A stretch of DNA of 64,000 nucleotides from Klenkia taihuensis. GTDB taxonomy: Bacteria; Actinomycetota; Actinomycetes; Mycobacteriales; Geodermatophilaceae. Below the pieces are notes generated by a model, which worked only from the letters and a program-made list of their open reading frames with translations, did no database searches and was not told where the DNA came from. The stretch spans positions 496,001-560,000 of the forward strand of contig NZ_FOMD01000003.1 of assembly GCF_900112525.1 (NCBI RefSeq), written 5' to 3'. The position numbers were made by a program, and so were the translations under genes. Positions 24,706 through 47,837 of this stretch are shown here, in pieces (positions within the stretch are counted from its first letter, which is position 1; each line of letters opens with the position of its first letter).

Positions 24706-24714
24706 GCCGTGGAC

Positions 24715-24746: not shown

Positions 24747-24794
24747 TTCTGCGTCATCTGCACCCGGCGGGCCCGACGTGTGCAGGATCGGCCG

Positions 24795-27978: not shown

Positions 27979-28093
27979 CCAACCGGTCGGCGCCGTTCAC
28001 CGACGGCACACGCAGGCGAAACAGACCGCGCCCAAGGTGACCGCATCGCCCGGACAGCCGCCCGGGTGACCGCACACCGCACCGGAGGTGACC

Positions 28094-29736: not shown

Positions 29737-29842
29737 GCAGCCCCCTCCCGGACCGCACCACCCGGGGCGCCCGTCGCCGTCCGTCCCGGTCACCGACACC
29801 CCGAACCCGAGGTGCCGGCCCCACCCATCCCCAGGAGCACGT

Positions 29843-32306: not shown

Positions 32307-33712
32307 CCAGCACCGCGCTGGACAGCCTGGTCGACGGCACCGCCATGCTGGCGGCGCTGGCCGCCGGCGACGTGTCGGCCGAGGAGCTCACCCGGGCCCA
32401 CCTGGACCGGATCGCCGGCCCGGGCGCGGCGGTGAACGCGCTCGTCGCGGTCGACGCCGACGGCGCGGTGGCCGCTGCCCGCGCCCTGGACGCCGACCGC
32501 GCGGCGGGCCGCCCGCTCGGCCCGCTGGCCGGGCTGCCGATCACGGTCAAGGACTCCGTCGACGCCCTCGGCCTGCCCAGCTCGCACGGCCGGGCCCTCG
32601 ACCGGCGGGTGGCCACCGCCGACGCGCCGGCCGTGCGCCGGCTGCGGGAGGCCGGCTGCGTGGTGCTGGGCAAGACCAACGTCCCGGTCTGGCTGGCGAG
32701 CATGCACAGCGAGAACGAGCTGTTCGGCGCCACGCTCAACCCGTGGGACCCGACCCGCTCCAGCGGCGGTTCCAGCGGCGGGTCCTCGGCCGCCGTCGCC
32801 GCGGGCCTCGGGGTGGCCGACCTGGGCAGCGACCTCTCCGGCTCGCTGCGCGTGCCGGCCGCCTGGTGCGGCCTGTTCGGCCACCGGCCCAGCAACGGCG
32901 CGGTGTCCAAGCTGGGCAACCTGCCGTGGCCGGACGGCGGCCTGCTGGAGCCGATGGTCAGCGCGATCGGCCCGTTCGCCCGCTCCGCCGCCGACACCGC
33001 GGCCTTCAGCGAGGTGCTGTTCGGCGCGGAGGGGATCGAGGCCGTGGGCTGGCAGCTGCGGCTGCCCCCGCCCCGGGTCACCTCGCTGACCGGCCTGCGG
33101 GTCGGCGTGTGGCTCACCGACCCCGTCGCCCCGGTCGACCCCGAGGTGGCGACGGCGATCCGCGGGTTCGCCGACGCCCTGGCCGGCGCGGGCGCCCACG
33201 TCGCCGAGCTGGCCGACCCGCCGGTGGGCGGGGCCGACGACCTGGCGCTGTACCTGCGGCTGCAGTCGGCGGAGATCGTGCACGGGTTCGACGCCGACGA
33301 CCTCGCCGCCGCCGACGACCGGTACCACCAGTCGGTGTGGGCGGCGCTGCGCGACCTGGAGGCGCAGCGCGCGGCCACGGCCCGCTGGGCGGAGGTGTTC
33401 ACCGGGGTCGACGTCGTCCTGTGCCCGGCGGTCTCGCGGGTGGCCACCACCTACACGTCCGCGATGACCGCCCCGGAGACCGTCGTCGTGGACGGCCGCG
33501 AGGTGCCGATCGACTCGGTCTGCGACTGGGCCCGGCTGTCCAGCCTGGGCCGGCTGCCGGCCACCGTCGTCCCGCTGGGGCCGGGCCGGGTCAGCGGGCT
33601 GCCCGTCGGTGCGCAGCTGCTCGGCCCCTACCTGGAGGACCGCACCCCGCTGGCCGTCGCGTGCCTCGCCGAGCAGGCCGGGCTCGTGGCCTTCACCCGC
33701 CCGCCCATCTGA
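32303..33712 (+). CDS. Amidase (amidase-signature family)
   Basis: 469 residues. The Ser-cisSer-Lys catalytic machinery is visible: Lys83 in ITVKDSVD, the serine-rich SSGGSSGGSSAAVAAGLG, and the nucleophile region GSDLSGSLRVPAAWCGLFGHRPS. The family hydrolyses linear amides and carbamoyl groups. Coupled to the LLM oxygenase, so it may act on the ring-opened product; the substrate is inferred only in outline. It ends 19 bp from the convergent formamidase gene. Confidence 0.92.
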   Translation: MTSTALDSLVDGTAMLAALAAGDVSAEELTRAHLDRIAGPGAAVNALVAVDADGAVAAARALDADRAAGRPLGPLAGLPITVKDSVDALGLPSSHGRALDRRVATADAPAVRRLREAGCVVLGKTNVPVWLASMHSENELFGATLNPWDPTRSSGGSSGGSSAAVAAGLGVADLGSDLSGSLRVPAAWCGLFGHRPSNGAVSKLGNLPWPDGGLLEPMVSAIGPFARSAADTAAFSEVLFGAEGIEAVGWQLRLPPPRVTSLTGLRVGVWLTDPVAPVDPEVATAIRGFADALAGAGAHVAELADPPVGGADDLALYLRLQSAEIVHGFDADDLAAADDRYHQSVWAALRDLEAQRAATARWAEVFTGVDVVLCPAVSRVATTYTSAMTAPETVVVDGREVPIDSVCDWARLSSLGRLPATVVPLGPGRVSGLPVGAQLLGPYLEDRTPLAVACLAEQAGLVAFTRPPI

Positions 33713-33731: not shown

Positions 33732-34862
33732 CTACGGTTCTGCCGGCCCCGCCGCAGGGGCCCGCCGCGTGCGGAGCGCGTGGCGGGGGGCGGCGGGGTC
33801 GTTCTCGAAGTCGGACTTCCGGATGGTGGCGTGCACACCCTTGACCACGTCGACGACCTGGCTGATCCGGAAGTCGGTCGCGGCCGAGAGGTAGGCGTAG
33901 GCGAGGGAGGGGTCCATGCCGAACCGGGCCTGCAGGAGGGCGACGGCCGCGCGCACGCAGTCGGCGACGGCCAGGTCGAGGTCCTCGTCCATCCCGGTGG
34001 GCACCAGGAACTCCGCCGTCTCCGCGAGCGGCCCGACCAGCTCGCCGAACCGGGCCAGCGCGTCCTCCCGGGCCACCACGTCCAGCCGCACCGTGGCCCG
34101 CAGGCTCGCCTCCATCGCGGTCAGCGACACCTCGCCGTCCCCCTGCGCGAAGTGCGGGTCGCCGACGTAGGCCAGCCCGCCGTCGGCCTGCACCGGCAGG
34201 TAGAGCGTGGACCCGGCGGTCAGCAGGGCGATGTCGACGTTCCCGCCGTGCCGTCCCGGCGGCACCGAGTGCGGGCGCTGCCGGCCGGCCACCGCCACGC
34301 CCATCACGCCGAGGAAGGGCCGCAGGGGGAAGGCCACCGTCGGTTCCGCACCGGGGGTCAGCGGCAGCAGGCCGTGCGTCCCGTCCTCGCTGACCGTGGC
34401 GAAGGCGCTGAACACCGGCGCCCCGCCGAGCGGGTGCTCGCCGACCAGCACACCCTTGCCGTGCCGGTTGGAGATCACCCCGTAGGGCACCCGCGGGGTG
34501 GCGTCGAGCAGCGTCATCGCGAGCAGGTCCCCGACCTGCGCGCCGGCCACCGCCACCGGCCGGCTGACCACGTGCGGGCCGTCCACGCCGAACCGGTGCG
34601 GGTGCTCGCTCGCGGCCAGCGCGACGGCGTCGGCGAGCACCTCGGTCACCCCGTGCGCGCCGAAGAACGCCGCCGGGTCGCGGCCCTGGTCCTCCAGGAT
34701 CCCCTCGTGGCTGATCGTGTCGACCGTGACCGCGGTGCCCGGCTCGACCTCCAGCACCGGCTCGTCGGCCGCGCAGGGCAGCCGGCCCCACAGCACGTGC
34801 TCCGGCGCCGCCGTGAGGTGCACGTCGCCGAGGACGGGACCGGTGCCCGGCTGCAGGATCAC
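33732..34862 (-). CDS. Acetamidase/formamidase family protein
   Basis: 376 residues of the FmdA/AmdA family. Typical segments are VTVDTISHEG near the N-terminus, PYGVISNRHGKG, GRHGGNVDIALLTAGSTLYLPV, GDPHFAQGDGEVSLTAMEASL and the C-terminal DCVRAAVALLQARFGMDPSLAYAYLSAATDFRISQVVD. The family releases ammonia and carboxylate from small amides such as formamide, a plausible late step of heterocycle breakdown. GTG start overlaps the stop of the amidohydrolase gene, so it is third in the Rieske operon. Confidence 0.92.
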   Translation of the reverse strand: MILQPGTGPVLGDVHLTAAPEHVLWGRLPCAADEPVLEVEPGTAVTVDTISHEGILEDQGRDPAAFFGAHGVTEVLADAVALAASEHPHRFGVDGPHVVSRPVAVAGAQVGDLLAMTLLDATPRVPYGVISNRHGKGVLVGEHPLGGAPVFSAFATVSEDGTHGLLPLTPGAEPTVAFPLRPFLGVMGVAVAGRQRPHSVPPGRHGGNVDIALLTAGSTLYLPVQADGGLAYVGDPHFAQGDGEVSLTAMEASLRATVRLDVVAREDALARFGELVGPLAETAEFLVPTGMDEDLDLAVADCVRAAVALLQARFGMDPSLAYAYLSAATDFRISQVVDVVKGVHATIRKSDFENDPAAPRHALRTRRAPAAGPAEP

Positions 34863-36220
34863 CCGCCCAGGTCCGCGGCGATCCGGGCCAGCCGCTCGTG
34901 CACCTGGGACTCCACCTCGCCGGCCTGCGGGTCGACCAGGTCGGCACCGTGCGCCACGGCCTTCCCGCCGACCCACACCGAGCGCAGGTTGCGCAGCGAG
35001 CAGGCCAGCACGTAGGTGCCGACGGCGTCCCACACCGGCCCGGTGTCGGGGCGGCGCGGGTCCACGACGCAGAAGTCGGCGTACCGGCCCACCCGCAGCG
35101 AGCCGACGTCGCCGTCCACGCCCAGGGCCTCGGCGCCGCCGCGGGTGTGCATCATCAGCACGTCGCCGACGGGCGCGGCGGTGGGGTCCTTGTACTGCGC
35201 GCGCAGCAGCGCGATGCCGGTGCGCATGTTGTTCCACGGGTCGGCGACGTCGGTGCAGGACTGGTCGTCCAGGCCCATCCCGACCCGCATCCCGGCCGCC
35301 CGGATCTCCGGGATCGACGCCACCCCGCTGGCCAGGCGGCCGTTGCTCATCGGCTGCCAGCTCATCGCGCAGCCGGCCGCCGCCGCGGTCGCGATGATCT
35401 CCGGCGTCGTCTGGATGAAGTGGCCGAACACCAGCTGCGGCGACAGCGCCCCGGAGTCGGCGTACCAGGCGAACTTCGAGCGCTGCAGGTCCAGCATCTC
35501 GGCGGTCTCCAGGAAGTGCGCCTGGTTGACCAGCCCGTACCGGCGCATCACCTCGGTCTCCAGCGCGGCGGTGTCCGGGGTCGGCGCCCACTGCACCGCG
35601 CCGCTGACCGCCACGCCCAGCAACAGCGAGGGGTCGGCGTCCGCGGCGGCCCCGACCGTCTCCTCGACGTGGGCCAGCGCATCGGCCCGGGGCACGTGCC
35701 CCTGGGCCAGCATCACCGAGTGCAGGCTGCGCAGCCCGGCGTCGGTCTTGGCCCGTAGCTGGGCGTGCTGGCGGTCCAGGGACGGGATGCGGTCGCCGAA
35801 GCTGGCGATGGACGGGTCGAACTGCAGTCCGCCGTCGGTGAAGTCGTAGGCGGTGGTGATGCCGTTGCGCAGGAAGTCCTGGGCGCCGTGCCGGGTGCAC
35901 CAGTACATGTCCTCGGGGCTGGCCGGCAGCACGTAGCGGAGCATCGCCTCGATCCAGCCGTAGAGCGTGGAGTCCATGCCCAGCCCGCGGCTGCCCGAGG
36001 TGAACAGGTGGCTGTGCGCGGAGACGAAGCCCGGCCCGATGATCGTCCCGCCGGCGTCGAGCACCTCGGCCGCCTGCGCGAGCTGCTCCGGCGTCGGCTC
36101 GCCGGGCTCCACGGCGGTGATCCGGCCGTCGTCCCCGACGGAGAACCAGCCCACGAACGGGTCGGGGCGCTCCGGGTCGACGGTGAGCAGGGTGGCGCCG
36201 TGCACGAGCAGCTCGGTCAT
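34859..36220 (-). CDS. Amidohydrolase (ATZ/TRZ/chlorohydrolase-like)
   Basis: 453 residues. Metal ligands are expected in GPGFVSAHSHLF (His69, His71), NQAHFLET, VFGHFIQTT and GLDDQSCTDVADPWNNMRTGIALLRAQ. The last resembles the DD/ND block of triazine and S-adenosylhomocysteine deaminases. The reaction is predicted hydrolytic deamination or dechlorination of a ring substituent. It lies between the Rieske oxygenase and the formamidase with overlapping stop/start codons, so the three form an oxygenase-deaminase-amidase operon. Confidence 0.9.
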   Translation of the reverse strand: MTELLVHGATLLTVDPERPDPFVGWFSVGDDGRITAVEPGEPTPEQLAQAAEVLDAGGTIIGPGFVSAHSHLFTSGSRGLGMDSTLYGWIEAMLRYVLPASPEDMYWCTRHGAQDFLRNGITTAYDFTDGGLQFDPSIASFGDRIPSLDRQHAQLRAKTDAGLRSLHSVMLAQGHVPRADALAHVEETVGAAADADPSLLLGVAVSGAVQWAPTPDTAALETEVMRRYGLVNQAHFLETAEMLDLQRSKFAWYADSGALSPQLVFGHFIQTTPEIIATAAAAGCAMSWQPMSNGRLASGVASIPEIRAAGMRVGMGLDDQSCTDVADPWNNMRTGIALLRAQYKDPTAAPVGDVLMMHTRGGAEALGVDGDVGSLRVGRYADFCVVDPRRPDTGPVWDAVGTYVLACSLRNLRSVWVGGKAVAHGADLVDPQAGEVESQVHERLARIAADLGG

Positions 36221-37320
36221 CGGGTCTCCACGGCGGTGGTCGGGTGCGGGGTGGGGATCCAGGCGCCGGTGACGAGCTCGGTGTACATCCGGCGCAGCAG
36301 CAGGCTGTTCTTGTCCGCCTTGGCGTGCGCGTTGAGGTGCTGGGCCAGCGGGAACTCGTCGGGCAGCCGGTCCAGCAGGGCCTTGTCCTCCAGCTCGACC
36401 TGGTGGTCGAAGGCCCGGATGTCGGCGGCCGGCCGGTCGGCCTCGGTGTCGGTGCGCAGCACGACCTGGTGGATGGTGCAGTGGCTGTCGTCGACCGGCG
36501 TGATGGCCTTGAGCATCACGTGGCCCAGGCCGTCGGGGTAGCGGATGAGCAGGTGCATGAAGAACGGCAGGTGCACCTGGCTCCAGGTGTGCCGCACCGT
36601 CGCGCCGTCCTCACCCGGCCGGCCCTCGACCGGGACGTCGGTCCAGGTGATGAGCCCGTACGGCGTGCGCTGCACGTTCTGGTCGGTGAGCTCGGGGTTG
36701 TCGGGGTTGCCGAAGCTGTTCATGTGCACGAAGGCCACGTGGCCCGGGTCGATGTTGTTCTCGACCAGGTGCATGGCGGTGCAGTCGAAGTCCCACGAGC
36801 CCTCGGGCACCTGGCGCCAGGCGGGGTCGTCCCACTCGACGACCTCCGGGATGTCCGCGACCGGCCCGCCCTCGGCGTCGGTGGCCAGGCAGACCCAGAC
36901 CAGGCCGTACCTCTCCTGGCTGCGCACCATCGTCAGGCCCGACTTGGTGGGGTGCGGGGCCCCGGGGAACTGCGGGATGCGCTGGGTCAGGCCGTCCTTG
37001 TCCCACTCCCAGCCGTGGTACGGGCAGACCAGGTGGCAGTCGGCGACCCAGCCCATCGACAGCGGCGCGTCGCGGTGGGCGCACCGGTCGTGGGCGACGC
37101 TGACCGGGCCGGCGGGGTCGGGCCGCCAGACCACGAGGTCGGTGCCGAGGACCGTCCGGTGCAGCGGCGCGGCGCCGCGGCGGCCGGGCTCGACCTCGGT
37201 GCGCACGTCGTCGACGGCGCACACGGCGTACCAGAAGCGGCGGAAGACGGGGTGCTCGGACAGCACGAGGGTCTCGGGTCCGGCATGGCGGGTGGTGCGG
37301 GGCTCCTGCAGGGCGGTCAT
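36217..37320 (-). CDS. Rieske-type aromatic ring-hydroxylating/demethylating oxygenase, alpha subunit
   Basis: 367 residues. The Rieske 2Fe-2S ligands are Cys80, His82, Cys99 and His102 (CAHRDAPLSMG and CPYHGWEW). The mononuclear iron site is in VENNIDPGHVAFVH, with Asp191 bridging to His194 and His199. Length and organisation match one-component-terminal oxygenases that N- or O-demethylate (vanillate, caffeine) or hydroxylate small rings. No reductase or ferredoxin gene adjoins it; the VanB-type reductase at 24795 is the likely partner. The ATG overlaps nothing upstream, and a candidate operator lies at 37404-37419. Confidence 0.93.
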   Translation of the reverse strand: MTALQEPRTTRHAGPETLVLSEHPVFRRFWYAVCAVDDVRTEVEPGRRGAAPLHRTVLGTDLVVWRPDPAGPVSVAHDRCAHRDAPLSMGWVADCHLVCPYHGWEWDKDGLTQRIPQFPGAPHPTKSGLTMVRSQERYGLVWVCLATDAEGGPVADIPEVVEWDDPAWRQVPEGSWDFDCTAMHLVENNIDPGHVAFVHMNSFGNPDNPELTDQNVQRTPYGLITWTDVPVEGRPGEDGATVRHTWSQVHLPFFMHLLIRYPDGLGHVMLKAITPVDDSHCTIHQVVLRTDTEADRPAADIRAFDHQVELEDKALLDRLPDEFPLAQHLNAHAKADKNSLLLRRMYTELVTGAWIPTPHPTTAVETR

Positions 37321-37403
37321 GGTGGTTCCCGGTGGTGACGGCGGGCCGCTCGCGCCGTTCGCGCGGCCCCGCGTGCACGCTGCCGGGCGGTCGTTGCGGC
37401 CCG

Positions 37404-37421: not shown

Positions 37422-38981
37422 TCAGCGCCGGTCCAGGTCGGCACGGACGACGGCGGCGGCGTTGCGGCCCGACGCGCCCCACACGCCGGCGCCGGGGAAC
37501 GTGCCCGCGCCGGTCAGGTAGAGCCCGCGCACCGGGGTGGCGTAGCGGGTCAGCTCCCGGTCCCGGCCGACCAGCGCGGCCAGCGGCCCGCCGGAGAAGG
37601 ACGGCGCCCACCCGCGCGGCAGGCCGAGGTCGCGCTCGTAGTCCTCGGGCGTGACCACCCGCCACCGCCGGACCCCGGCCGCGAACGCCGGGCCGACCTG
37701 CGCGGTCAGCAGGTCCAGCCAGCGCCGCGGCTCGGCCGAGGTCGCCCAGCCGCCCGGGACGGCGTAGGGCGTCCAGAGCACCTCCAGGGACAGCACGTGG
37801 TCCTCGCCCACCCGCATCGAGGGGTCCAGCGCCGAGGGAGTGTTCACCAGCGCCATCGGCCGGGCGGCGACCTCGCCGCGGTGCAGCGCCGCGTGCGCCC
37901 GCTCGATCGCCGCGGTATCGGGGGCGAGGGTGACGGTGGGTGCGTGCTGGTCGAACGGACCCACCAGCTCCTGCAGCCGCTGCACCTGCGGGAACACCGG
38001 CAGGGTGCCGACGACGGCGTCCAGCTTGGACTCGTAGCCGTCGGGGGTGGTGCGCGCCCGCCAGCGGGCGACCACCGCCTCGGCGCCGGCCGGCGGGTGC
38101 GGGCCCAGCCAGTCCACGACCGTCGTCCGCGGGTCGACCGAGCTGACCACGACCTCGGCGGGCACCTCCTCGCCGGTGTCCAGCAGCACCCCTCGCGCCG
38201 CGTCGCCCTCGGCCAGGACCCGGGTCACCCGGGCGCCGGTGCGCACCCGGCCGCCGGCGGCCTCCAGCGCCGACCGCAGCGCCGCGGGCAGCGCGCCGGA
38301 CCCGCCGACCGGCCGGCCGATGCCCACCAGGTGCCGCATCGCGATGCCGACCGCGCCCAGCCCGGTGCCGGGGGTGGACGGCGCGGCACCCCAGACCGCG
38401 GGCCCGGTGGTGAAGGCGCCGGCCACCAGGAACGGGTCGGTCAGGTAGCGGCCGAGCACCTCGCCGACGCTGCGGCGGGACCAGTCCAGCAACCGGGGGA
38501 GCGCGGTGACCCGGCGGTCGGCGAGCGTGGCGAGCACCCGCCCGGGGGTGGGCGGGGTCGAGGTGAGCTCGGTGAGCAGCCGGGCCACGGGGGTGGCGTC
38601 GGCCAGGTAGCGGCGGTAGCCCTCGACCTGGGTGGGGTGGGTGCGGGCGAGGGCGTCCAGGGTCCGCTCGACCTCGCGGAACTGCACGAAGGCGGGGCCC
38701 GCGGCGTCGTCCCAGCCGACGTGCAGCGCCTGCGGGTCGACCTCGAGGTAGCGCAGGCCGTGCGCGGCGAGGTCGAGCTCGTCGGCGATCGCGGTGGTGC
38801 GGACCATCGTGTGGTCGCAGTTGCAGATGTTCACCCGGGCGCCGAGCGCGTCGACGGTGGCAGCGCACCCGCCGGTGTCCGGGCCGGCCTCGAGCACGGT
38901 GACGTCGTGGCCGGCGCGCGCGAGGTAGGCGGCGCAGACCAGGCCGTTGTGCCCGCCGCCGACCACCACCACCGTCGCCAT
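37422..38981 (-). CDS. Phytoene-desaturase-like FAD oxidoreductase (PYROXD2 type)
   Basis: 519 residues. An N-terminal Rossmann FAD site VVVGGGHNGLVCAAYLARAG with the Glu of VLEAGPDTGG, and the family's C-terminal FAD segment LYLTGAGTFPGAGVWGASGRNAA. It is related to carotenoid desaturases and PYROXD2, but no carotenoid genes are near, so an amine or ring oxidation in the surrounding pathway is more likely. It is divergent from the 2-oxoglutarate oxygenase gene. The ATG is 6 nt after a CACCGT -10-like hexamer. Confidence 0.88.
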   Translation of the reverse strand: MATVVVVGGGHNGLVCAAYLARAGHDVTVLEAGPDTGGCAATVDALGARVNICNCDHTMVRTTAIADELDLAAHGLRYLEVDPQALHVGWDDAAGPAFVQFREVERTLDALARTHPTQVEGYRRYLADATPVARLLTELTSTPPTPGRVLATLADRRVTALPRLLDWSRRSVGEVLGRYLTDPFLVAGAFTTGPAVWGAAPSTPGTGLGAVGIAMRHLVGIGRPVGGSGALPAALRSALEAAGGRVRTGARVTRVLAEGDAARGVLLDTGEEVPAEVVVSSVDPRTTVVDWLGPHPPAGAEAVVARWRARTTPDGYESKLDAVVGTLPVFPQVQRLQELVGPFDQHAPTVTLAPDTAAIERAHAALHRGEVAARPMALVNTPSALDPSMRVGEDHVLSLEVLWTPYAVPGGWATSAEPRRWLDLLTAQVGPAFAAGVRRWRVVTPEDYERDLGLPRGWAPSFSGGPLAALVGRDRELTRYATPVRGLYLTGAGTFPGAGVWGASGRNAAAVVRADLDRR

Positions 38982-39013
38982 GCGGGCACGGTGCCGGTGC
39001 GGCGTGACGTCTG

Positions 39014-39034
39014 GGTTACGTCTGCGTGCACCCC
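39014..39034. promoter_or_regulatory. Candidate operator in divergent region
   Basis: GGTTACGTCTGCGTGCACCC, closely similar to the sequence at 24728-24746, and preceded by a second ACGTCTG 11 bp upstream. It lies between the divergent flavoprotein and 2-oxoglutarate oxygenase genes. Confidence 0.3.
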
Positions 39035-39120
39035 TGGACGGCGGCCGCCGGGCGCGGTGAGGATCGCCGCACTCCCCGATGCGGCCACCCTGTCGCCGGG
39101 TACGAGGAAGGCACGCCATC

Positions 39121-40104
39121 GTGTCCAGCACCCCCGCCATCCCCGTCGTCGACGTATCGCCGGCGTTCGGCGACGACCCCGAGGCGCTGGCCGCCTGCGT
39201 CGCGCAGCTGCGGCACGCCCTGACCGAGGTCGGCTTCCTGCAGGTCGTCGGCCACCGCGTCGACCCCGCCGTGGTCGACGCGGCCTACGCCGCGATGGAC
39301 CAGGTCGCGGCCATGCCCGACGCCGAGCGGCGGGCGCTGGTCCGGCCCCGGGCCAGCTCGCGCGGGCTGTTCGAGGAGATCGACGACCGCGGCCGGGTGC
39401 TCAACCGGGCGCTGCAGTTCATGAAGTACAACGACCTTGCCGCCGCCGAGGCCGACGACGCGGTGGGCGGGCACCCCGACTACTTCGTGCCGAACGTGTG
39501 GCCCGAGCAGCTGCCGGGGTTCCGCACCACCTGGAAGGACTACGACGCCGCGACCCGGTCGCTGGCCGGCACGCTGATGGGCCTGTTCGCGCTGGCCATG
39601 GGCCTCCCGCGGGACTTCTTCGCCGAGCCGTTCAGCAAGGACGTGACGCTGTTCAGCGTCAACCTGTACCCGCCGCAGCCGGTGGACGACGACTACGTCG
39701 AGGAGGTCGTGCTCAACCCGCACGCCGACTCCGGTGGGCTGACCGTGCTGCACCAGCGCGGCACCTACGAGGGGCTGCAGGTGCGCGACGCGGCGGCCGG
39801 CTGGGTCACCGTGCCGCTGCGCGAGGACGCGTTCGTGATCAACATCGGGCACCTGATGTCGCGGTGGACCAACGGCCGGTTCCCGGCGACCGTGCACCGG
39901 GTGGTGGCCGGCCCCGACACGTCGGCGGAGCGGCAGTCGATCGCGATGTTCTTCCTGCCCAACATCGACCAGGTGGTGGCGCCGGTGGACACCATGGTCG
40001 GCGCCGAGGGCGCCCGCTTCCTGCCCATCACCGCCTACGACTGGCAGGAGCAGTTCATGAAGGAGTACGTGCTGGTCAACAGCTACGCCGAACCGGTCAG
40101 CTGA
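39121..40104 (+). CDS. 2-oxoglutarate/Fe(II)-dependent oxygenase (IPNS-like)
   Basis: 327 residues, double-stranded beta-helix fold. An N-terminal DIOX_N-like domain (IPVVDVSPAFGDD...VGFLQVVGHRV) is followed by the iron triad His201-x-Asp203 (NPHADSGGLTVL) and His259 (ATVHRVV). The 2-oxoglutarate-binding Arg would be in the following AERQSIAMFFLP. Family members hydroxylate or N/O-demethylate small molecules; in this setting a second demethylation or ring hydroxylation is plausible. GTG start with AGGAAGG upstream. Confidence 0.9.
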   Translation: MSSTPAIPVVDVSPAFGDDPEALAACVAQLRHALTEVGFLQVVGHRVDPAVVDAAYAAMDQVAAMPDAERRALVRPRASSRGLFEEIDDRGRVLNRALQFMKYNDLAAAEADDAVGGHPDYFVPNVWPEQLPGFRTTWKDYDAATRSLAGTLMGLFALAMGLPRDFFAEPFSKDVTLFSVNLYPPQPVDDDYVEEVVLNPHADSGGLTVLHQRGTYEGLQVRDAAAGWVTVPLREDAFVINIGHLMSRWTNGRFPATVHRVVAGPDTSAERQSIAMFFLPNIDQVVAPVDTMVGAEGARFLPITAYDWQEQFMKEYVLVNSYAEPVS

Positions 40105-40176: not shown

Positions 40177-41460
40177 TCAGCGGCGGGCGGCGAGCAGGCG
40201 GCGCAGGTCGGCGGCGACGTCGGCCTCGTCGCGGGTGACCAGCCGGCCGTCGCGCACGACCACCCGGCCACCGACCACCACGTGCTTCGGGCGCCGGCCG
40301 GGGGAGGCCCACAGCAGCCCCGCCACCGGGTCGGCCACCCCGGCGTCGGCGACCCCGCTGACGTCCCAGCAGACCAGGTCGGCGCGGGCCCCCACCTCCA
40401 GCCGGCCGAGGTCGGGCCGGCCCAGGCCGTCGGCCGAGCCGCGGGTGGCGAAGCCCAGCACCTCCTCCGCCGACAGCACCCGGCCGACGAGCGGCGCGAC
40501 CTGCATCGCCAGCCGGGCGTCGGCCAGGAGGTGACCGGCGTCGTTGGACCCGCCGCCGCTGGTGCCCAGCCCCACCGGCACGCCGGCGTCGGCCAGGGCG
40601 GCCACCGGCGCGATGCCCCACCCCATCGGCAGGTCGCAGCCCGGCGCGTGCGTCGCGCTCACCCCGGCCGCCGCGAGCCGGGCGACCTCGGCGTCGGTGA
40701 CGCCGCACAGGTGCGCCAGCGTGACGTCGGGGGCCAGCCAGCCCCACTCGTCGAGCAGCTCCAGCGGCCGCCGTCCGTACCGCTGCGCCGCGATGTCGAC
40801 GTCGACCTGCTCGTTGGCCTGGGTCCGGCGGCGCAGACCCCGCGCCGCGGCGACCTCGGCCATCAGGCGGAAGGTGTCCGGGCCGTCGCTGTGCACCCCG
40901 GCCGGGCCGACCGCCACCTGCAGGGTGCCGTCGGCGGTCACGCCGCCGTGGGGGACCAGCGCCGCGGCGACCGCGTCGGCCGAGGCGGCGGCGCCGGCCG
41001 CGTCGTCCCTGGCCGACCCGCGGACGAAGACCAGCCGGGCGCCGAGCTCCCGCGCCGCCGTCGCCACGGCGGAGGCGATCGCCACCCCGTCGCCGGTCGA
41101 CGCCGGCCAGGTGAGGTGGTGGTCGGCCACGGTGGTCACGCCGCACAGCAGCGCCTCCGCCAACCCGGCCGACGCCGCCGCGTGCGCCAGCTCCGGGTCG
41201 ACACCGACCGCGCCGTAGGCCGCAGCCATCGTCGGCAGCCACTGCGCCATCGGTACGCCGCGGGTGCCCGGCAGCGTGCGGAACGCCGTCTGCAGCAGGT
41301 GGTGGTGGGCGTTCACCAGCCCCGGCGTCACCACGCAGCCGGTGGCGTCCAGCACCTCGCCGCCCACCGCCGCGAACCCGGCCACCAGCCCGTCGTCGTC
41401 GCACGAGACCTCCCGGGAGGTCGACCCGAGCACGGCCACGGCACCGGTCACGTCCATCAC
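40177..41460 (-). CDS. Amidohydrolase, 8-oxoguanine-deaminase-like
   Basis: 427 residues. Metal-binding HxH is in PGLVNAHHHLLQT (His52, His54), with TTVADHHLTW, ANEQ (in place of the usual HxxE), ATHAPGCDLPMGWGIAPV and GTSGGGSNDAGHLLADARLAM. The overall pattern is that of 8-oxoguanine deaminase and hydroxyatrazine hydrolases, but the HxxE ligand appears replaced by NEQ and the canonical catalytic Asp region reads GGGSND. The predicted substrate is an amino-substituted ring. GTG at 41460 is chosen over the adjacent ATG because CAGGGT sits 7 nt upstream, as in leaderless genes nearby. Confidence 0.85.
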   Translation of the reverse strand: MMDVTGAVAVLGSTSREVSCDDDGLVAGFAAVGGEVLDATGCVVTPGLVNAHHHLLQTAFRTLPGTRGVPMAQWLPTMAAAYGAVGVDPELAHAAASAGLAEALLCGVTTVADHHLTWPASTGDGVAIASAVATAARELGARLVFVRGSARDDAAGAAASADAVAAALVPHGGVTADGTLQVAVGPAGVHSDGPDTFRLMAEVAAARGLRRRTQANEQVDVDIAAQRYGRRPLELLDEWGWLAPDVTLAHLCGVTDAEVARLAAAGVSATHAPGCDLPMGWGIAPVAALADAGVPVGLGTSGGGSNDAGHLLADARLAMQVAPLVGRVLSAEEVLGFATRGSADGLGRPDLGRLEVGARADLVCWDVSGVADAGVADPVAGLLWASPGRRPKHVVVGGRVVVRDGRLVTRDEADVAADLRRLLAARR

Positions 41461-41540
41461 GCGACCGACCCTGGCAGCCGTGTGTTCCGGTCAGGTGTCG
41501 GCTGGAACGCGACCGTCACCGGGCTGCAACGACGCGGTCC

Positions 41541-41546
41541 TAGCGT
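41541..41546 (+). promoter_or_regulatory. -10 of leaderless creatininase operon
   Basis: TAGCGT, 8 nt before the GTG start of the creatininase-family gene. Upstream, GGAAC (41504), GTCAC (41515) and GCAAC (41526) recur at 11-bp steps and may be an activator site. Confidence 0.45.
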
Positions 41547-41554
41547 CCGCTGCC

Positions 41555-42334
41555 GTGACCGCCCGCCTGCTCACCGAGCTCTCCGCCCCCGCCATCGCCG
41601 ACGCGCTCGGCCCGGACTCGGTGCTGGTGCTGCCGACCGGGGCGATCGAGCAGCACGGCCCGCACCTGCCGGTCGCCACCGACCTGATCACCGCGCAGAG
41701 CATGGCCGAGCGTGCGGTCGCGGAGTTCGGCGAGGAGCTCGACCTCTGGCTGCTGCCGCCGCTGGCCTACACCAAGAGCAACGAGCACCACTGGAGCTGC
41801 GGCACCTTCTGGCTCTCGGCGCAGACGCTGCTGGGCGTGCTGCACGACCTTTGCGCCTCGATGACGAAGACCCCGGCCCGCCGGCTGGCGTTCCTCAACG
41901 GCCACGGCGGCAACTCCGCGCTGCTGCAGGTGGCCGCCCGCGACCTGCGGATCGCCTACGGCCTGCGCACCTTCACGATGCACCCCTCGCTGCCGGCCGA
42001 CCACGGCGGGACGAGCCCGGAGAGCGAGCTCGGCCTGGGCATCCACGGCGGGCACGAGGAGACCTCGCTGATGCTGCACCTGCGTCCGGAGCTGGTGGAC
42101 ATGGAGCAGGCGCAGCGCTGGGTGCCCGAGCAGCTGACCGAGTACCGGCACGTCCGGTTCGGCGGGTCGGTGAGCTTCGGCTGGACCTCCGACGACTTCG
42201 GCCCGGACGGGGTGATCGGCGACGCCAGCACCGCCACCGCCGAGCACGGCAAGGAGAAGGCCGAGGCGATGCTCGCCCACCTCGGCGAGGCCTTCGCCGA
42301 GGTGGCCCGCTTCGACCCCGGCCCGCGCGCGTGA
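41555..42334 (+). CDS. Creatininase family protein
   Basis: 259 residues. Metal ligands follow the family pattern: Glu32 and His34 in PTGAIEQHGPHLP, Asp43, NGHGGNS (114-120) and the HEET block near 166-169. The family opens cyclic amides (creatinine, formylaminopyrimidines) and also includes MftE peptidases; no mycofactocin genes are present. As first gene of a tightly overlapped five-gene operon it probably performs a ring-opening step. The start appears leaderless. Confidence 0.9.
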   Translation: MTARLLTELSAPAIADALGPDSVLVLPTGAIEQHGPHLPVATDLITAQSMAERAVAEFGEELDLWLLPPLAYTKSNEHHWSCGTFWLSAQTLLGVLHDLCASMTKTPARRLAFLNGHGGNSALLQVAARDLRIAYGLRTFTMHPSLPADHGGTSPESELGLGIHGGHEETSLMLHLRPELVDMEQAQRWVPEQLTEYRHVRFGGSVSFGWTSDDFGPDGVIGDASTATAEHGKEKAEAMLAHLGEAFAEVARFDPGPRA

Positions 42335-43086
42335 GGCTGGCCGGCAAGCGCGTCGTCGTCACCGGCGGCGCACGCGGCATCGGCGCGGCCATGGTGCGCA
42401 CCTTCGCCGCCGAGGGCGCCGCGGTCGCCGTCCTGGACGTGCTGGCCGAGGAGGCCGGCAAGCTCGCCGCGGAGGTGGGCGGGCACGCCGTCGAGGTCGA
42501 CCTGGCCGACGTGGCCGCCACCCGCGCGGCCACCCAGAGCGCCGTCGACGCCCTCGGCGGGGTCGACGTGCTGGTCAACAACGCCGGCATCCTGCGCTTC
42601 GCCCCGCTGCTGGACATCGAGCCGCACGAGTGGGACGAGGTGTTCGCCGTCAACGTCCGCGCGATGCTGGTCACCACCCAGGTCGCCGTCACCTCGATGG
42701 TCGCCCAGCGGGCCCCGGCGTTCCCCGGCGACGTCGTCGGCAAGGTCGTCAACACCGCGTCGATGGGCGGCAAGGCCGGGGGCGCGGGGCAGGCGCACTA
42801 CGCCGCGTCCAAGGCCGCGGTCATCGGGCTCACCCGCGCGGCCGCCGAGGAGCTGGGGCCGCTGGGCATCACCGCCACCTGCCTGTGCCCGGGGTACGTG
42901 CTCACCGAGATGGGCGCCGGCACGCGCACCGACGCCGACGTCGCCCGCTGGTCGGCGCGGTCGCCGCTGGGCCGGCTGGGCCAGCCCGAGGACGTCGCCC
43001 GCGCCGCGCTGTTCCTGGCGTCCCCGGACTCCGACTACCTGACCGGCGAGGCGCTCAACGTGGCCGGCGGGATGGTCACGCATTGA
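42331..43086 (+). CDS. SDR family oxidoreductase
   Basis: 251 residues, classical short-chain dehydrogenase: TGGARGIG cofactor loop (about 11-18), LVNNAG, catalytic Ser in NTASMGG, Tyr and Lys in YAASK. Asp in AVLDVLAEE at the end of beta-2 suggests NAD(H) preference. It oxidises or reduces an alcohol/carbonyl in the operon's pathway. GTG start overlaps the creatininase stop (GTGA). Confidence 0.93.
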   Translation: MRLAGKRVVVTGGARGIGAAMVRTFAAEGAAVAVLDVLAEEAGKLAAEVGGHAVEVDLADVAATRAATQSAVDALGGVDVLVNNAGILRFAPLLDIEPHEWDEVFAVNVRAMLVTTQVAVTSMVAQRAPAFPGDVVGKVVNTASMGGKAGGAGQAHYAASKAAVIGLTRAAAEELGPLGITATCLCPGYVLTEMGAGTRTDADVARWSARSPLGRLGQPEDVARAALFLASPDSDYLTGEALNVAGGMVTH

Positions 43087-43832
43087 CCCGCAATGCCTGG
43101 ACCCTCAGCGAGGACCACGTCGACCTGCGCCGGCCGGCGCAGGCACCCAGGCCCGTCGAGGTCATGGCGCTGCCCCAGCGGCTGACCCTCGACCTGGCCC
43201 GCACCGCGCTGGTCGCCGTCGACCTGCAGAACGACTTCTGCCACCCCGACGGCTGGCTGGCCTCGATCGGCGTCGACGTCTCCGGTGCTGCGGCGCCCGT
43301 CGCCGCGCTCGCCGCCGCCCTGCCCGGGCTGCGCGCGGCCGGCGTCCCCGTGGTGTGGCTGAACTGGGGCAACCGGCCCGACCGGGCCGACCTGCCGCCC
43401 GGCGTCCGGCACGTCTACGACCCCGACGGCGCCTCCACCGGCATCGGCGACCCGCTGCCGGGCGGGTCCCGGGTGCTCGAAGCCGGCTCCTGGTCGGCCG
43501 CGCTGGTCGACGAGCTGGTGCCCGGCCCGGGCGACCTGCACGTGGCCAAGCAGCGGATGAGCGGGTTCCCCGGCACCCCGCTGGACGCCGTGCTGCGCAA
43601 CCTGCGGGTGGACACCCTGCTGTTCGCCGGGGTCAACACCGACCAGTGCGTCTACGCCACGCTCGTCGACGCGGCGAACCTCGGCTACGACGTCGTCCTG
43701 GTCGAGGACCTGTGCGGCACCACCTCGCCGGGCTTCTGCACCGAGGCGACCGTCTACAACGTGCGCCAGTGCTTCGGCTTCACCACCACCTCGGCCGACC
43801 TGCGCGCCGGCCTCGACCCCCAGGAGCCCTGA
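43083..43832 (+). CDS. Cysteine hydrolase, RutB/biuret-hydrolase-like (isochorismatase superfamily)
   Basis: 249 residues. The catalytic triad is Asp47 (VAVDLQNDFC), Lys156 (HVAKQRMSGF) and Cys189 (NTDQCVYAT). The pattern of FPGTPLDAVLRNLRVDTLLF and EDLCGTTSP is that of RutB, biuret amidohydrolase and N-carbamoylsarcosine amidohydrolase, which cleave ureido/carbamoyl groups to ammonia and CO2. I chose TTG at 43083, which overlaps the SDR stop as TTGA, because the N-terminal block NAWTLSEDHVDLRRPAQAPR looks like conserved family sequence; ATG at 43164 would remove it. Confidence 0.88.
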   Translation: MTRNAWTLSEDHVDLRRPAQAPRPVEVMALPQRLTLDLARTALVAVDLQNDFCHPDGWLASIGVDVSGAAAPVAALAAALPGLRAAGVPVVWLNWGNRPDRADLPPGVRHVYDPDGASTGIGDPLPGGSRVLEAGSWSAALVDELVPGPGDLHVAKQRMSGFPGTPLDAVLRNLRVDTLLFAGVNTDQCVYATLVDAANLGYDVVLVEDLCGTTSPGFCTEATVYNVRQCFGFTTTSADLRAGLDPQEP

Positions 43833-44269
43833 TGGCCCTCGCCCCCGTCGTCAAGTCGCTGTCCGACATCACCCCGCACTACATCGGCGAGAACCGCACC
43901 GTGCGGCTGGCCGTGCTGTCCGGCCCGGCCGACGGGTCCTCGACCACGGTGGTGCTGGAGATCTGGGAGCCCGGCGGCTCGCAGCCGGACAACTCGCACG
44001 AGGCCTCCACCGAGACCTTCGTGGTGCTGCGCGGGACCGCGCGGGCGCACAGCGACGAGCACGTCGCCGACCTCGGGCCGGGTGACGTCATCGTGCTGCC
44101 GGCCACCTCGGTGCACCACATCGTCAACACCTCGGCGACCGAGCGGCTGTACACGATCACCGTGATGGAGAACGACGGCGGCTTCGCCGACCTGATCCTC
44201 ACCGGCCCGGAGGCCTTCCTGGACGCCGACGACGCCGCGGTGCTCGGCGCAGTCCTCACCTCGGCGTGA
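43832..44269 (+). CDS. Cupin domain protein
   Basis: 145 residues with a single cupin barrel: ETFVVLRGTARAHSDEHVADLGPGDVIVLPATSVHHIVNTS. Metal ligands are likely among NSHEASTE and HHIVN. It could be an isomerase or dioxygenase of the pathway, or a small regulator. ATG shares one base with the previous stop (TGATG). Confidence 0.85.
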   Translation: MALAPVVKSLSDITPHYIGENRTVRLAVLSGPADGSSTTVVLEIWEPGGSQPDNSHEASTETFVVLRGTARAHSDEHVADLGPGDVIVLPATSVHHIVNTSATERLYTITVMENDGGFADLILTGPEAFLDADDAAVLGAVLTSA

Positions 44270-45789
44270 CGGTCGAGCAGGAGGTCCGGGCCGCCGTCGC
44301 GCGGTACGAGGCGGCGCTGGCCGCCGACGACCTGGCCGAGCTCGACGCCCTGTTCGCCCCCGGCGAGGACACCCTGCGGGCCGACGCCGCCGGCGTGCTC
44401 GTCTCGCACGCCGCGATCAGCGCCTACCGCCGCGGCCGCGGCGGCGCGCCGGCGCGGGAGGTCGTCGCGCTGCACGTCGTCGCGCACACCCCGGACCTGG
44501 CGACGGCGGTCGCGGAGACCCGCCGGCCCGACGGCACCCGCGGGCTGCAGACCCAGGTCTGGGAGCGCGGCGCGGCCGGCTGGCAGGTCCGGGTCGCGCA
44601 CGTCAGCTCCGGCCCCCAGCCGCTGGACCCGGTCGAGGACCCCACGACCTGGCGGGTGCTGGGCTCCCCGCTGGTGGCGCCCACCGGCACCGGCCCGCTG
44701 GACGGCGTGGCGGTCGCGGTCAAGGACCTGGTGGCCGTCGCCGGGCAGCGGGTGGGCGCGGGCAACCCGACCAAGCTCGCGCTGGCCCGCACCGAACCCG
44801 CGCACGCGCCGGTGCTCGCCGCGCTGCTGGCCGCCGGGGCGCACGTGCGGGGCATCGCCACCACCGACGAGCTGGCCTACAGCATCTCGGGCACCAACGT
44901 GCACACCGGCAGCCCGGCCAACCCGTGGGGCGCCGGGCTGGCCGTCGGCGGGTCGACCAGCGGACCGGCCGGCGCGGTCGCCCGCGGCCAGGCCGACCTG
45001 GGGCTGGGCACCGACACCGCCGGGTCGATCCGGGTGCCGGCGTCCTGGTGCGGGCTGCACGGCCTGCGGCCCACCCACGGCGCGCTGCCGCTGGACGGCG
45101 TGGCCCCGCTGGCCTCCGGCTTCGACGTCGTCGGCTGGCTGACCCGCGACGCCGGGCTGCTGCACCGCACCGCGCAGGTGCTGCTGCCCCCGGCCGACCC
45201 GGTCACCGAGCTGCTGCTGGCCGAGGACCTGCTGGAGCTGGCCGCCCCGCCGGTCGCCGACCTGGTGCGGGCGGTGGCCGCGGCGTCCGGGCTGCCGGTG
45301 CGCACCACGCGGCTGACCGCCGGCGAGGAGCACGAGGCCTGGTTCACCGCGTTCCGCGCCGCGCAGGGCGCGCAGGCGTGGGCGGTGCACGGGGCCTGGG
45401 TGACCGCGCACGGCGGCACGCTCGGCCCGGGCATCGCGCAGCGGTTCGCCGACGCCGCCGCGGTGACCGCCGCCGACGCCGAGCGCGCCGCCGAGGTGGT
45501 GGCCGCGGCCCGGACGGCGCTGCGCGACCGCATCGGACCGGGCACCGCCGTCCTCGCCCCGGCCACCAGCACCACCGCCCCGCCGGTGGTCGCGGCCGCC
45601 GCGGACAAGGCGGCGCTGCGCGGGGCCACGCTGCGGCTGACCTGCCTGGCCGGTCTCGGTGGGCTGCCCTCGGCGGTGGCCCCCGCCGGCCGGGTCGGCG
45701 GCCACCCGGCCGGCGTCGCGCTGATCGGGGCGGCCGGGGCGGACACCGCGCTCACCGGCCTGCTGGCCGCCTGGGACCGGACGCCGTAG
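44266..45789 (+). CDS. AtzH-like domain fused to amidase
   Basis: 507 residues. Residues 1-125 are an NTF2-like AtzH domain (ARYEAALAADDLAELDALF, VSHAAISAYRRGRG). From about 140 the amidase-signature domain begins: Lys153 in AVAVKDLVAVAG, VGGSTSGPAGAVARG, LGLGTDTAGSIRVPASWCGLHGLRP. Residue spacing around the Ser-cisSer-Lys triad is intact. In cyanuric acid breakdown AtzE is an amidase and AtzH a separate protein, both acting on carboxylated ureas; here the two are one chain. Predicted last hydrolytic step, on a ureido or carbamate product. GTG start overlaps the cupin stop. Confidence 0.9.
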   Translation: MTVEQEVRAAVARYEAALAADDLAELDALFAPGEDTLRADAAGVLVSHAAISAYRRGRGGAPAREVVALHVVAHTPDLATAVAETRRPDGTRGLQTQVWERGAAGWQVRVAHVSSGPQPLDPVEDPTTWRVLGSPLVAPTGTGPLDGVAVAVKDLVAVAGQRVGAGNPTKLALARTEPAHAPVLAALLAAGAHVRGIATTDELAYSISGTNVHTGSPANPWGAGLAVGGSTSGPAGAVARGQADLGLGTDTAGSIRVPASWCGLHGLRPTHGALPLDGVAPLASGFDVVGWLTRDAGLLHRTAQVLLPPADPVTELLLAEDLLELAAPPVADLVRAVAAASGLPVRTTRLTAGEEHEAWFTAFRAAQGAQAWAVHGAWVTAHGGTLGPGIAQRFADAAAVTAADAERAAEVVAAARTALRDRIGPGTAVLAPATSTTAPPVVAAAADKAALRGATLRLTCLAGLGGLPSAVAPAGRVGGHPAGVALIGAAGADTALTGLLAAWDRTP

Positions 45790-45790
45790 G

Positions 45791-47791
45791 TCAGACCTCG
45801 ATGCGGGCGCCCATCACCACGGTGCGGTCCTTGGGCAGCTCGAAGGAGCGGGCCGCGTCGGTGGTCAGGTGCGAGGTCGCGGTGAACACCGCGCGCCGCC
45901 AGCGCGGCAGCTCGCCGGGCCGGTGGTGGCCGGGGGAGCGGCTGACGTCGATGGTGGACAGGAACCAGGAGGCCCGCTCGAGGTCGACGTCGAGGTCGGC
46001 CTGCGCCAGGGCCCGGGCGAGGGCCTTCGGGACGTCGGTGCGCTGCCGGTAGCCGAAGTGCAGGGCCACCAGCACCACCGAGCCGTCGCTGCCCTCGGGG
46101 ACGGTGACCGTGCCGATCTCCTCGTCGACCACCCACGGGCTCAGCGCGGTGGTCAGCGAGACCACCAGCACCCGCTCGTGCAGGGCGTGCAGGTGCTCGA
46201 CGGTGGAGCGCAGGGCCAGCGGCGCGGTGGGCTCGCCCGCGGTGGCCCGGTTGAGGTAGACCGCCGTGCCGGGCACCCGGACCACCGACGACCCCGGCCC
46301 GCAGGCGTCGGTCAGCAGGTCGTCCAGCGGGCCCTCCTGCTCGTGCCGGCGCTTGGTCACCAGCAGCCGGCCGCGGAACCACGTCGTCATCACGGTGAAC
46401 AGCAGGACACCGATGACCAGCGGCACCCAGGCGCCGTGGGCGAGCTTGGTCAGGTTGGCGGCCAGGAAGCCGAGCATGATCGCCCCGACGAACGCGGCCC
46501 CGGCCAGCACCAGCGGCCGCGGCCAGCCCCACCGGTGCACCGCCACGACCGACGTCAGCACGATCGTCACCAGCACCGTGCAGGTCACCGCCATGCCGTA
46601 GGCGAAGGCCAGCGCCGCCGAGCTGCGGAAGGACAGCACCAGCAGGACGACGGCGACCATCAGCCCGTAGTTGACGTAGGGCACGTAGACCTGGCCGATG
46701 GTGTGCGCGGAGGTGTGCACGATCCGCAGCCGCGGCAGGTAGCCCAGCTGCACGGCCTGCCGGACGACGGAGAACGCGCCGGTGATCACCGCCTGGGAGG
46801 CGATCACCGTGGCCAGGGTGGCCAGCACGACCAGCGGGACCAGCGCCCAGTCGGGGACCACCCGGAAGAACGGCGCGGTGATCGGGCCGTCGGGGGACAG
46901 GTCGCCGATGACCAGCGCGCCCTGCCCGTAGTAGGACAGCATGCAGGCCGGGTAGACCAGGAACAGCCACGCCCGGGTGATCGGCGCCCGGCCGAAGTGA
47001 CCGAGGTCGGCGTACAGCGCCTCGGCGCCGGTGATGACCAGCACCACCGCGGCGAGGGCGAAGAACGCGGTGCCGGGCTGGTCGAGGAAGAAGCCGACGG
47101 CGTAGGTGGGCGACAGCGCGCGCAGCACACCGGGCTCCTGGACCACCCGGGACAGCCCGGACAGCCCGATGACCAGGAACCAGGCCACCATCACCGGCCC
47201 GAAGGCCGCGCCGACCTTGGCCGTGCCGAACCGCTGGACGCCGAAGAGCACCACCACGATGACCAGGACGGCGGGGACGACGAGGTCGCCGAGCGCCGGG
47301 TCGATGACCGTCACGCCCTCGACGGCGGACAGCACCGAGATGGCCGGGGTGATCATGCTGTCGGCGAGGAAGAGCGCGGCCCCGGCGATGCCGGCCAGGG
47401 CCAGCCGGCGCACGACCACCGGGGGCAGCTTCCGGCCGTCCCCGCCGCGGCGGCCGACCAGGGTGATCAGCGACATGATGCCGCCCTCGCCGTGGTTGTC
47501 GGCGTGCAGCACGACCCCCACGTACAGGCCGGTGACCACGATCGTCGCGGCCCAGAAGATCAGCGACAGCAGGCCGAGCAGGTTGGCCTCGGTCAGCGGC
47601 ACCGGGTGCGGGTCGTCGGGGCTGAACAGGGTCTGCAGCGTGTAGATGGGGCTGGTGCCGATGTCGCCGAACACGACGCCGAGCGCGCCCAGGGTCAGCG
47701 CCGCCCGGGTCGGGGACCCGCCGCCGGGGCGCACCCGGCCGCGGCCGGCAGGCCCGTCGTGCGGCGGCGCCGGGGCGGTCTGCTCGGTCAC
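45791..47791 (-). CDS. kup: Kup-type potassium uptake transporter
   Basis: 666 residues with about 12 membrane segments and a C-terminal cytosolic domain of about 200 residues. N-terminal signature LGALGVVFGDIGTSPIYTLQTLF, then WAATIVVTGLYVGVVLHADNHGEGG and SVLSAVEGVTVIDP are diagnostic. Low-affinity, proton-coupled K+ uptake at the membrane is the family function. The GTG at 47791 is chosen for family length; an in-frame GTG at 47827 exists. It is convergent with the amidase gene, with a 1-bp gap. No c-di-AMP riboswitch is seen in front of it. Confidence 0.94.
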   Translation of the reverse strand: MTEQTAPAPPHDGPAGRGRVRPGGGSPTRAALTLGALGVVFGDIGTSPIYTLQTLFSPDDPHPVPLTEANLLGLLSLIFWAATIVVTGLYVGVVLHADNHGEGGIMSLITLVGRRGGDGRKLPPVVVRRLALAGIAGAALFLADSMITPAISVLSAVEGVTVIDPALGDLVVPAVLVIVVVLFGVQRFGTAKVGAAFGPVMVAWFLVIGLSGLSRVVQEPGVLRALSPTYAVGFFLDQPGTAFFALAAVVLVITGAEALYADLGHFGRAPITRAWLFLVYPACMLSYYGQGALVIGDLSPDGPITAPFFRVVPDWALVPLVVLATLATVIASQAVITGAFSVVRQAVQLGYLPRLRIVHTSAHTIGQVYVPYVNYGLMVAVVLLVLSFRSSAALAFAYGMAVTCTVLVTIVLTSVVAVHRWGWPRPLVLAGAAFVGAIMLGFLAANLTKLAHGAWVPLVIGVLLFTVMTTWFRGRLLVTKRRHEQEGPLDDLLTDACGPGSSVVRVPGTAVYLNRATAGEPTAPLALRSTVEHLHALHERVLVVSLTTALSPWVVDEEIGTVTVPEGSDGSVVLVALHFGYRQRTDVPKALARALAQADLDVDLERASWFLSTIDVSRSPGHHRPGELPRWRRAVFTATSHLTTDAARSFELPKDRTVVMGARIEV

Positions 47792-47837
47792 GACGGGCAG
47801 TGAACCCCGTGGCCCTGTGCGGCACACCTCGACGCGC

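Follow-up and report, generated by a model that had tools for sequence, protein, structure and literature searches.

A putative cyclic-amide or ureide hydrolysis operon at the right-hand edge of a conserved 23-kb island in Klenkia taihuensis

Nine pocket residues have been defined for AtzH (PMC6219798), and Lys145 is essential in BiuH (PMC5806882). In ammonia-oxidising archaea, contigs carrying biuH, gatA-like, creatininase and allFGHK genes underlie a proposal of purine-ureide use (PMC12625717). We compared these systems with a five-gene operon in a 64,000-nucleotide stretch of DNA from Klenkia taihuensis, a member of Geodermatophilaceae (contig NZ_FOMD01000003.1, positions 496,001 to 560,000; the whole stretch is referred to as the window). 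The operon brings together a creatininase-family protein, a short-chain dehydrogenase, a RutB-like cysteine hydrolase, a cupin, and an AtzH domain fused to an amidase. We consider, with a probability of about 0.66, that the island it belongs to breaks down a cyclic amide or ureide and that the operon supplies the half of this pathway in which the ring is opened and nitrogen released. The five genes are as follows.

41555-42334, + strand: creatininase-family amidohydrolase, 259 aa, GTG start; Pfam PF02633, 222 bits (gathering cut-off 31.3)
42331-43086, + strand: short-chain dehydrogenase (SDR), 251 aa; PF13561 (adh_short_C2), 190 bits
43083-43832, + strand: RutB-like isochorismatase-family cysteine hydrolase, 249 aa, TTG start; PF00857 (Isochorismatase), 130 bits
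43832-44269, + strand: single-domain cupin, 145 aa; Cupin_2, 50 bits
44266-45789, + strand: AtzH domain fused to an amidase-signature domain, 507 aa; PF11533, 79.4 against 27 bits, and PF01425, 152.6 bits

The original prediction, made from the letters of the window, had read these five genes with four overlapping or shared-base junctions. All were found as read, on the + strand: GTGA at 42331-42334, TTGA at 43083-43086, TGATG at 43830-43834, and GTGA at 44266-44269. It had also held that the genes are translated as a unit. This is reasonable but inferred: not all four junctions are conserved, and the RutB-like/cupin and cupin/amidase gaps widen to as much as about 36 bases in several relatives. 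The creatininase and SDR genes lie within a few bases of each other in all nine operon-bearing genomes, and an NTGA junction between the SDR and RutB-like genes, where translation starts at the uncommon codon TTG or CTG, can be seen in 9 of 9. All five proteins scored above their Pfam family cut-off, and no internal stops were found. The ratio of nonsynonymous to synonymous substitution (dN/dS), calculated for these very GC-rich sequences with the simple NG86 method, was 0.07-0.24 for all five genes relative to the closest relatives (G001 and G007). Because of these ratios and the lack of internal stops, we regard the five genes as maintained; by this measure, purifying selection acts on them in close relatives. 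Together with intact active-site residues, these results bear out the earlier view that none of the enzymes is decayed.

The AtzH-like domain (PF11533) of the fusion protein extends over residues 3-115 and the amidase domain (PF01425) over residues 142-296. Domain score and catalytic pocket both place the former in the AtzH-like family. When the pocket was mapped by hand from an alignment to 6BJT, eight of the nine residues were kept (equivalents of Tyr22, Arg46, Arg63, Arg66, Arg73, Arg96, Gln106, and Gln108), and Phe94 was replaced by Thr. The latter domain belongs to the amidase-signature family; its sequence and PDB alignments revealed the Lys, cis-Ser, and Ser motifs VAVKDL, GGSTSG, and DTAGSIR. 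The protein remained under the curated cut-offs for AtzE (TIGR02715, 122 against 426 bits; PRK09201, 127 against 461 bits) and HpxZ (NF033625, 75 against 135 bits). The AtzH-amidase fusion recurs in other actinomycetes, with matches spanning residues 10-500, and this recurrence suggests that an unstable intermediate passes directly from one domain to the other. A second kind of AtzH fusion was seen in G443, a genome from another family of the same class: an AtzH domain at the C-terminus of a metallo-beta-lactamase-like domain (L247:7370-8815), judged by eye from the translation. Proteins similar in sequence occur on their own in L074 and L246.

The Asp-Lys-Cys triad of the RutB-like protein (D47, K156, and C189) is invariant in nine orthologues. 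Among solved structures, E. coli RutB matches it best (128 bits), followed by BiuH. The scores for RutB (TIGR03614, 133 bits; cut-off 378) and BiuH (NF050097, 124 bits; cut-off 370) were both too low for assignment, and the gene has no rut gene context around it. The position of BiuH Lys145 is occupied by Met in the window protein, and the local motif is RutB-like. In a 97-row tree, 60 sequences of four phyla formed a RutB-like clade with 100/100 support and a stem of length 1.97. Neither BiuH nor E. coli RutB fell within this clade, the exact place of E. coli RutB being unsure owing to its long branch (2.3). By score and phylogeny, the operon enzyme is neither RutB nor BiuH.

In 26 of 46 loci outside Geodermatophilaceae, a homologous cupin gene stood no more than 2 kb from the RutB-like gene. 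The background rate, taken from the outer flanks of these 46 loci themselves, predicted 0.3; only part of the loci offered full 10-kb flanks for this internal control. The loci are not independent, 18 rows of the RutB-like clade being cyanobacterial. Cupin residues N54, H56, E61, H95, and N99 are invariant throughout an alignment that reaches from Klenkia to Paenibacillus and Nostoc (one row, from a plasmid record, was left out), and they plausibly form a metal site. In the AlphaFold model of the cupin (pLDDT 91), the nearest fold was that of TM1459, a single-domain Mn cupin; lower-ranked matches included a predicted oxalate decarboxylase and ectoine synthase.

Genes for creatininase, AtzE-type amidase, AtzH/HpxZ, and gamma-glutamyltransferase (GGT), the family of the oxamate amidohydrolase HpxW, also recur at RutB-like loci in other phyla. 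In a public Roseomonas record, the RutB-like gene neighbours cupin, creatininase, ATP-binding cassette (ABC), amidase, and HpxZ genes; in Rhizobium and Variovorax records it occurs with an amidase, a BMP-type importer, and a GGT close by. Distant RutB-like relatives (about 41%) are found without the cupin on Deinococcus and Rubrobacter plasmids (L166, L169), and the Rubrobacter copy adjoins a GGT gene. The start of a Paenibacillus cluster (L097:5283-6938) appears by eye to encode a regulator of the PucR type (purine catabolism), a hint at a purine-related substrate.

The PF02633 score and the conserved acidic and His residues establish the first operon protein as a member of the creatininase superfamily. 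Its best NCBIfam equivalog, MftE (TIGR03964), gave 128.8 bits against a cut-off of 172, and creatininase itself (TIGR04448) gave 102.6 bits against 235. True MftE was found in 20 of the 31 genomes searched, including the source genome (C10:455179-455856, 332 bits). Maximum-likelihood analysis of 55 proteins gathered the operon creatininases into one group (99/99), which joined the RutB-like/cupin-linked creatininases of other phyla (98/94); MftE was apart (93/86). Clustering with MftE, which the original prediction had named as one outcome that would refute it, was thus not found: the operon protein stands on a separate branch. In an alignment of the operon creatininase with 20 relatives, E32, H34, H117, and E169 were invariant and D43 was at least 90% conserved. 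We take these five residues to belong to the metal site.

On its left the operon continues into a larger gene island, ~23 kb in all (22784-45789), which is conserved among soil bacteria of the genus Klenkia. The convergent gene for a Kup potassium transporter (45791-47827, - strand) marks the right border of the island, and the operon stops one base before the Kup stop. The remainder of the island consists of the following features.

22784-26746: PNPOx-like protein, FAD_binding_4 oxidase, ferredoxin reductase (VanB type), and MTHFR-like protein; left end of the island, order conserved in relatives
26743-27978, + strand: CodA/AtzC-like amidohydrolase; matches AtzC
28088-31018, + strand: ABC uptake system of ATPase, permease, and substrate-binding protein (the last at 29834-31018)
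31122-32306, + strand: LLM-class monooxygenase
32303-33712, + strand: second amidase
33732-34859, - strand: formamidase/acetamidase-family protein (FmdA); PF03069, 112 bits
34859-36220, - strand: AH1, second COG0402-type amidohydrolase; conserved in relatives
36217-37347, - strand: Rieske non-haem iron oxygenase (VanA/NdmA/SxtT type)
37422-39083, - strand: CrtO-like FAD oxidoreductase; also present in the G443 cluster
39112-40104, + strand: 2-oxoglutarate/Fe(II) oxygenase, accessory
40177-41460, - strand: AH2, amidohydrolase resembling 8-oxoguanine deaminase and TrzN; divergent neighbour of the operon
41461-41554: intergenic region between AH2 and the operon, 94 bases, divergent

The best PDB match of the FAD_binding_4 oxidase was 6V42. 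AH1, AH2, and the CodA/AtzC-like protein make three amidohydrolases of the deaminase type. AH2 scored 268 bits against NF006055 (cut-off 532) and 229 bits against TrzN in the PDB. The substrate-binding protein had no sequence match in Pfam, NCBIfam, or the PDB. Its AlphaFold model (pLDDT 84.5) was nearest in fold to ThiY, which binds formylaminopyrimidine (FAMP) (E 1.6e-16, TM 0.58/0.74), and to a thiamin-binding protein, with TauA and Thi5 next. The modelled fold favours a ring compound as the substrate, without proving it.

The five-gene order was present in seven of the nine Klenkia genomes examined (G000, G001, G003, and G005-G008; on short contigs in G007 and G008), and the operon and most of the island are kept in two genomes of a neighbouring genus of the same family (G378 and G277). 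The order is evidently not peculiar to one strain; such uniqueness was the other outcome that the original prediction had said would refute it. G001 and G006 retain the full island order, as does G007 on a contig of 32 kb. G003 and G005 have the island without the LLM monooxygenase and the 2-oxoglutarate oxygenase, the LLM match in G007 is limited to the first 105 residues, and G008 shows the operon on a 3.8-kb piece only. We read the two oxygenase genes as accessory or possibly being lost. Of the other two Klenkia genomes, G002 lacks the operon and G004 has a split form.

In G004 and G016, creatininase and SDR genes are grouped with AH2, CodA, the ABC importer, and CrtO on one contig, and the RutB-like and cupin genes lie with a divergent AtzH-amidase gene on another, near a second, different creatininase gene. 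G009 and G344 have an importer-amidohydrolase-creatininase block in which the SDR, RutB-like, and cupin genes are not beside creatininase; the SDR is the least conserved partner of the five. G443 carries RutB-like, cupin, AtzH, amidase, LLM, creatininase, and CrtO genes in one run, with FmdA divergent. Because the halves are on separate contigs in G004 and G016, and the creatininase block occurs without the RutB-like/cupin pair in G009 and G344, the Klenkia operon can be read from gene order as an upper module (ABC, CodA, AH2, creatininase, and sometimes SDR) joined to a lower one. The lower module would comprise the RutB-like, cupin, AtzH, amidase, and FmdA genes. AH2 stays the neighbour of creatininase in all split clusters, the ABC uptake system accompanies creatininase in all clusters of the first module, and FmdA adjoins the AtzH-amidase gene in G060, G260, G114, and G344. 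The original prediction went no further than the five genes; the operon forms the end of a larger island, and its creatininase-SDR and RutB-like/cupin/amidase halves are separable.

The divergent intergenic region contains a 25-bp element, TGTTCC-N3-CAGGTG-N-C-N2-CTGGAA (41483-41507), which emerged from an eight-genome alignment and is an imperfect palindrome of the TGTTCC-N15-GGAA type. Its fixed positions are identical in all nine operon-bearing genomes (0 mismatches), and it was not recognisable in the split-cluster genomes. A sequence TAGCGT at 41541-41546 fits the TANNNT -10 box and ends 7-9 bases before the creatininase GTG, with 8 bases between them in the window, a spacing that would fit a leaderless transcript. 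The element and TAGCGT together look like an operator/promoter. That the remaining island genes share this operator was considered and rejected, because the element occurs as a single copy in both window and genome even with up to 3 mismatches allowed. Within the island, no gene for a dedicated regulator could be recognised.

In the pathway that we propose, the other island genes (uptake, deamination, oxygenation) probably act before the operon enzymes: the compound would be taken up, then deaminated and oxidised by island enzymes. The creatininase-like metalloenzyme would hydrolyse the ring amide, and the SDR would oxidise a hydroxyl, e.g., in a conversion of ureidoglycolate type to oxalurate type. 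The RutB-like cysteine hydrolase would cleave the ureide, setting free carbamate and hence CO2 and ammonia. The AtzH-amidase may handle an unstable small carboxylated urea or amide, passed between its two domains, and the metal cupin may provide an isomerase, decarboxylase, or aminohydrolase step or protect an intermediate. Ring opening, oxidation, carbamoyl removal, and amide hydrolysis had all been foreseen in the original prediction. Its core, a coherent amide or ureide hydrolysis operon, holds; the substrate, order, and activities are what we infer from families whose named-function cut-offs lie above the scores obtained.

Several observations weigh against this proposal. The four hydrolases scored well below every curated named-function cut-off, which leaves substrate and reaction order as proposals. 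Apart from the cupin, enrichment near the RutB-like gene in the 46 loci was modest (creatininase, 6 against 1.5 expected; amidase, 8 against 2.7; FAD oxidase, 3 against 2.1), and GGT and FmdA genes showed none within 2 kb. The fold family of the substrate-binding protein includes sulfonate and taurine binders too. The Klenkia island has no HpxW-like GGT, and one GGT lies elsewhere, on contig C10; the oxalurate/oxamate end is therefore only a parallel. A specific route from hydantoin through ureidoglycolate to an oxalurate-type product would use most operon enzymes and fits the HpxZ and HpxW-like families recurring in other phyla; we regard it as a tentative version, somewhat unlikely at best.

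A narrower form of the cyclic-amide or ureide reading takes the substrate to be an N-methylated purine, pterin, or guanidinium heterocycle (methylxanthine, methylated guanine, or creatinine-like), which the Rieske oxygenase and MTHFR-like protein would demethylate before the operon opens the ring. The nearest PDB relatives of the Rieske oxygenase are the saxitoxin-biosynthesis enzymes SxtDIOX/SxtT and the methylxanthine demethylases NdmA/NdmB, the island contains the MTHFR-like gene and a VanB-type reductase, and AH2 resembles 8-oxoguanine deaminase. However, the similarity of the oxygenase is at the family level only (125 bits for NdmA), and the Rieske and MTHFR-like genes are not universal, neither being beside creatininase in G009 or G344. 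Among the annotated island genes, none was recognisable as a xanthine dehydrogenase or as TmuM-type. We judge this form unlikely.

Catabolism of s-triazines, with the three amidohydrolases acting like TrzN, AtzB, and AtzC and the operon acting like AtzE, AtzH, and BiuH on the cyanuric-acid side, is more improbable still. AH2 is nearest TrzN and also matches AtzB/8-oxoguanine deaminase, the CodA-like protein matches AtzC, the AtzH pocket is intact but for the Phe94 replacement, and the genome encodes an AtzD/barbiturase homologue (C10:5504-6583, 489 bits; in L244). This homologue, however, is on another contig, outside the island, and neither AtzD nor AtzF is among the annotated island genes (the AtzF search did not extend to the rest of the genome). 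The island amidohydrolases score far under the triazine cut-offs; the RutB-like enzyme departs from BiuH in score, in clade, and at Lys145 (PMC5806882); and the triazine pathway is not known to involve a creatininase, a cupin, or oxygenases such as these. Elsewhere in the genome, three hydantoinase-B genes are present on C10, C7, and C5.

An opportunistic set of detoxifying hydrolases, acting in no linear pathway, would account for the varying operon composition, the varying size of several intergenic gaps, and the dispensability of the SDR, LLM, and 2-oxoglutarate oxygenase genes in relatives. It is very improbable in view of the RutB-like/cupin linkage over four phyla, the repeated finding of a dedicated importer together with creatininase, AtzH, and amidase, and the conserved divergent promoter element. 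An MftE-type peptidase serving mycofactocin maturation was rejected as hardly credible: although MftE is the best equivalog (129 bits), the score is under 172, a true 332-bit paralogue is encoded elsewhere, the two are on separate tree branches, and no mycofactocin genes were recognised in the annotated island.

Beyond the Klenkia operon and its proposed role in cyclic-amide or ureide breakdown, we see even odds that the RutB-like enzyme, together with its cupin partner and the creatininase subfamily linked to them, marks a ureide/cyclic-amide pathway not yet described, which would extend through Actinomycetota, Pseudomonadota, Bacillota, and Cyanobacteriota and of which the operon would be one assembled form. 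A literature search, with most subscription journals outside its reach, found no paper on this gene set or on the RutB-like/cupin pair. Members of these three families often carry family-level annotation only; public plasmid records, for instance, label them "cysteine hydrolase family protein", "cupin domain-containing protein", and "creatininase family protein". Their linkage as subfamilies across four phyla, in many cases beside a dedicated importer, turns this vague annotation into a testable pathway for the use of a nitrogen-ring compound.

The operon shares single features with several known systems. The archaeal contigs have an isochorismatase hydrolase near an amidase, and creatininase in one metagenome-assembled genome; they differ in having a true BiuH clade member and in handling oxalurate by AllFGH, and the cupin and the AtzH fusion are not mentioned in the passages of PMC12625717 consulted. 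The first operon enzyme belongs to the same family as Pseudomonas creatininase and MftE, and shares invariant E32, H34, H117, and E169 with MftE, whereas the NGHYEN motif of Pseudomonas creatininase is NGHGGN in the operon protein. E. coli RutB has the same isochorismatase fold, Asp-Lys-Cys triad, and RxSGF-type motif after the catalytic Lys; the operon enzyme, in its separate clade, has in addition a conserved N-terminal extension and a WGNRPD motif. BiuH, of the same superfamily, has equivalents of Asp36, Gln38, Phe41, Lys142, and Cys175 in the operon enzyme (PMC5806882), but differs in clade, in the Lys145 to Met replacement, and in score (124 against 370 bits). The AtzH/HpxZ and AtzE/HpxY pairs correspond to the operon in the AtzH pocket equivalents and the amidase-signature partner; in the operon, however, both are fused in one protein, and Phe94 is Thr. 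That the AtzH and amidase domains are fused in nature also speaks for the proposal that an unstable intermediate couples AtzE to AtzH.

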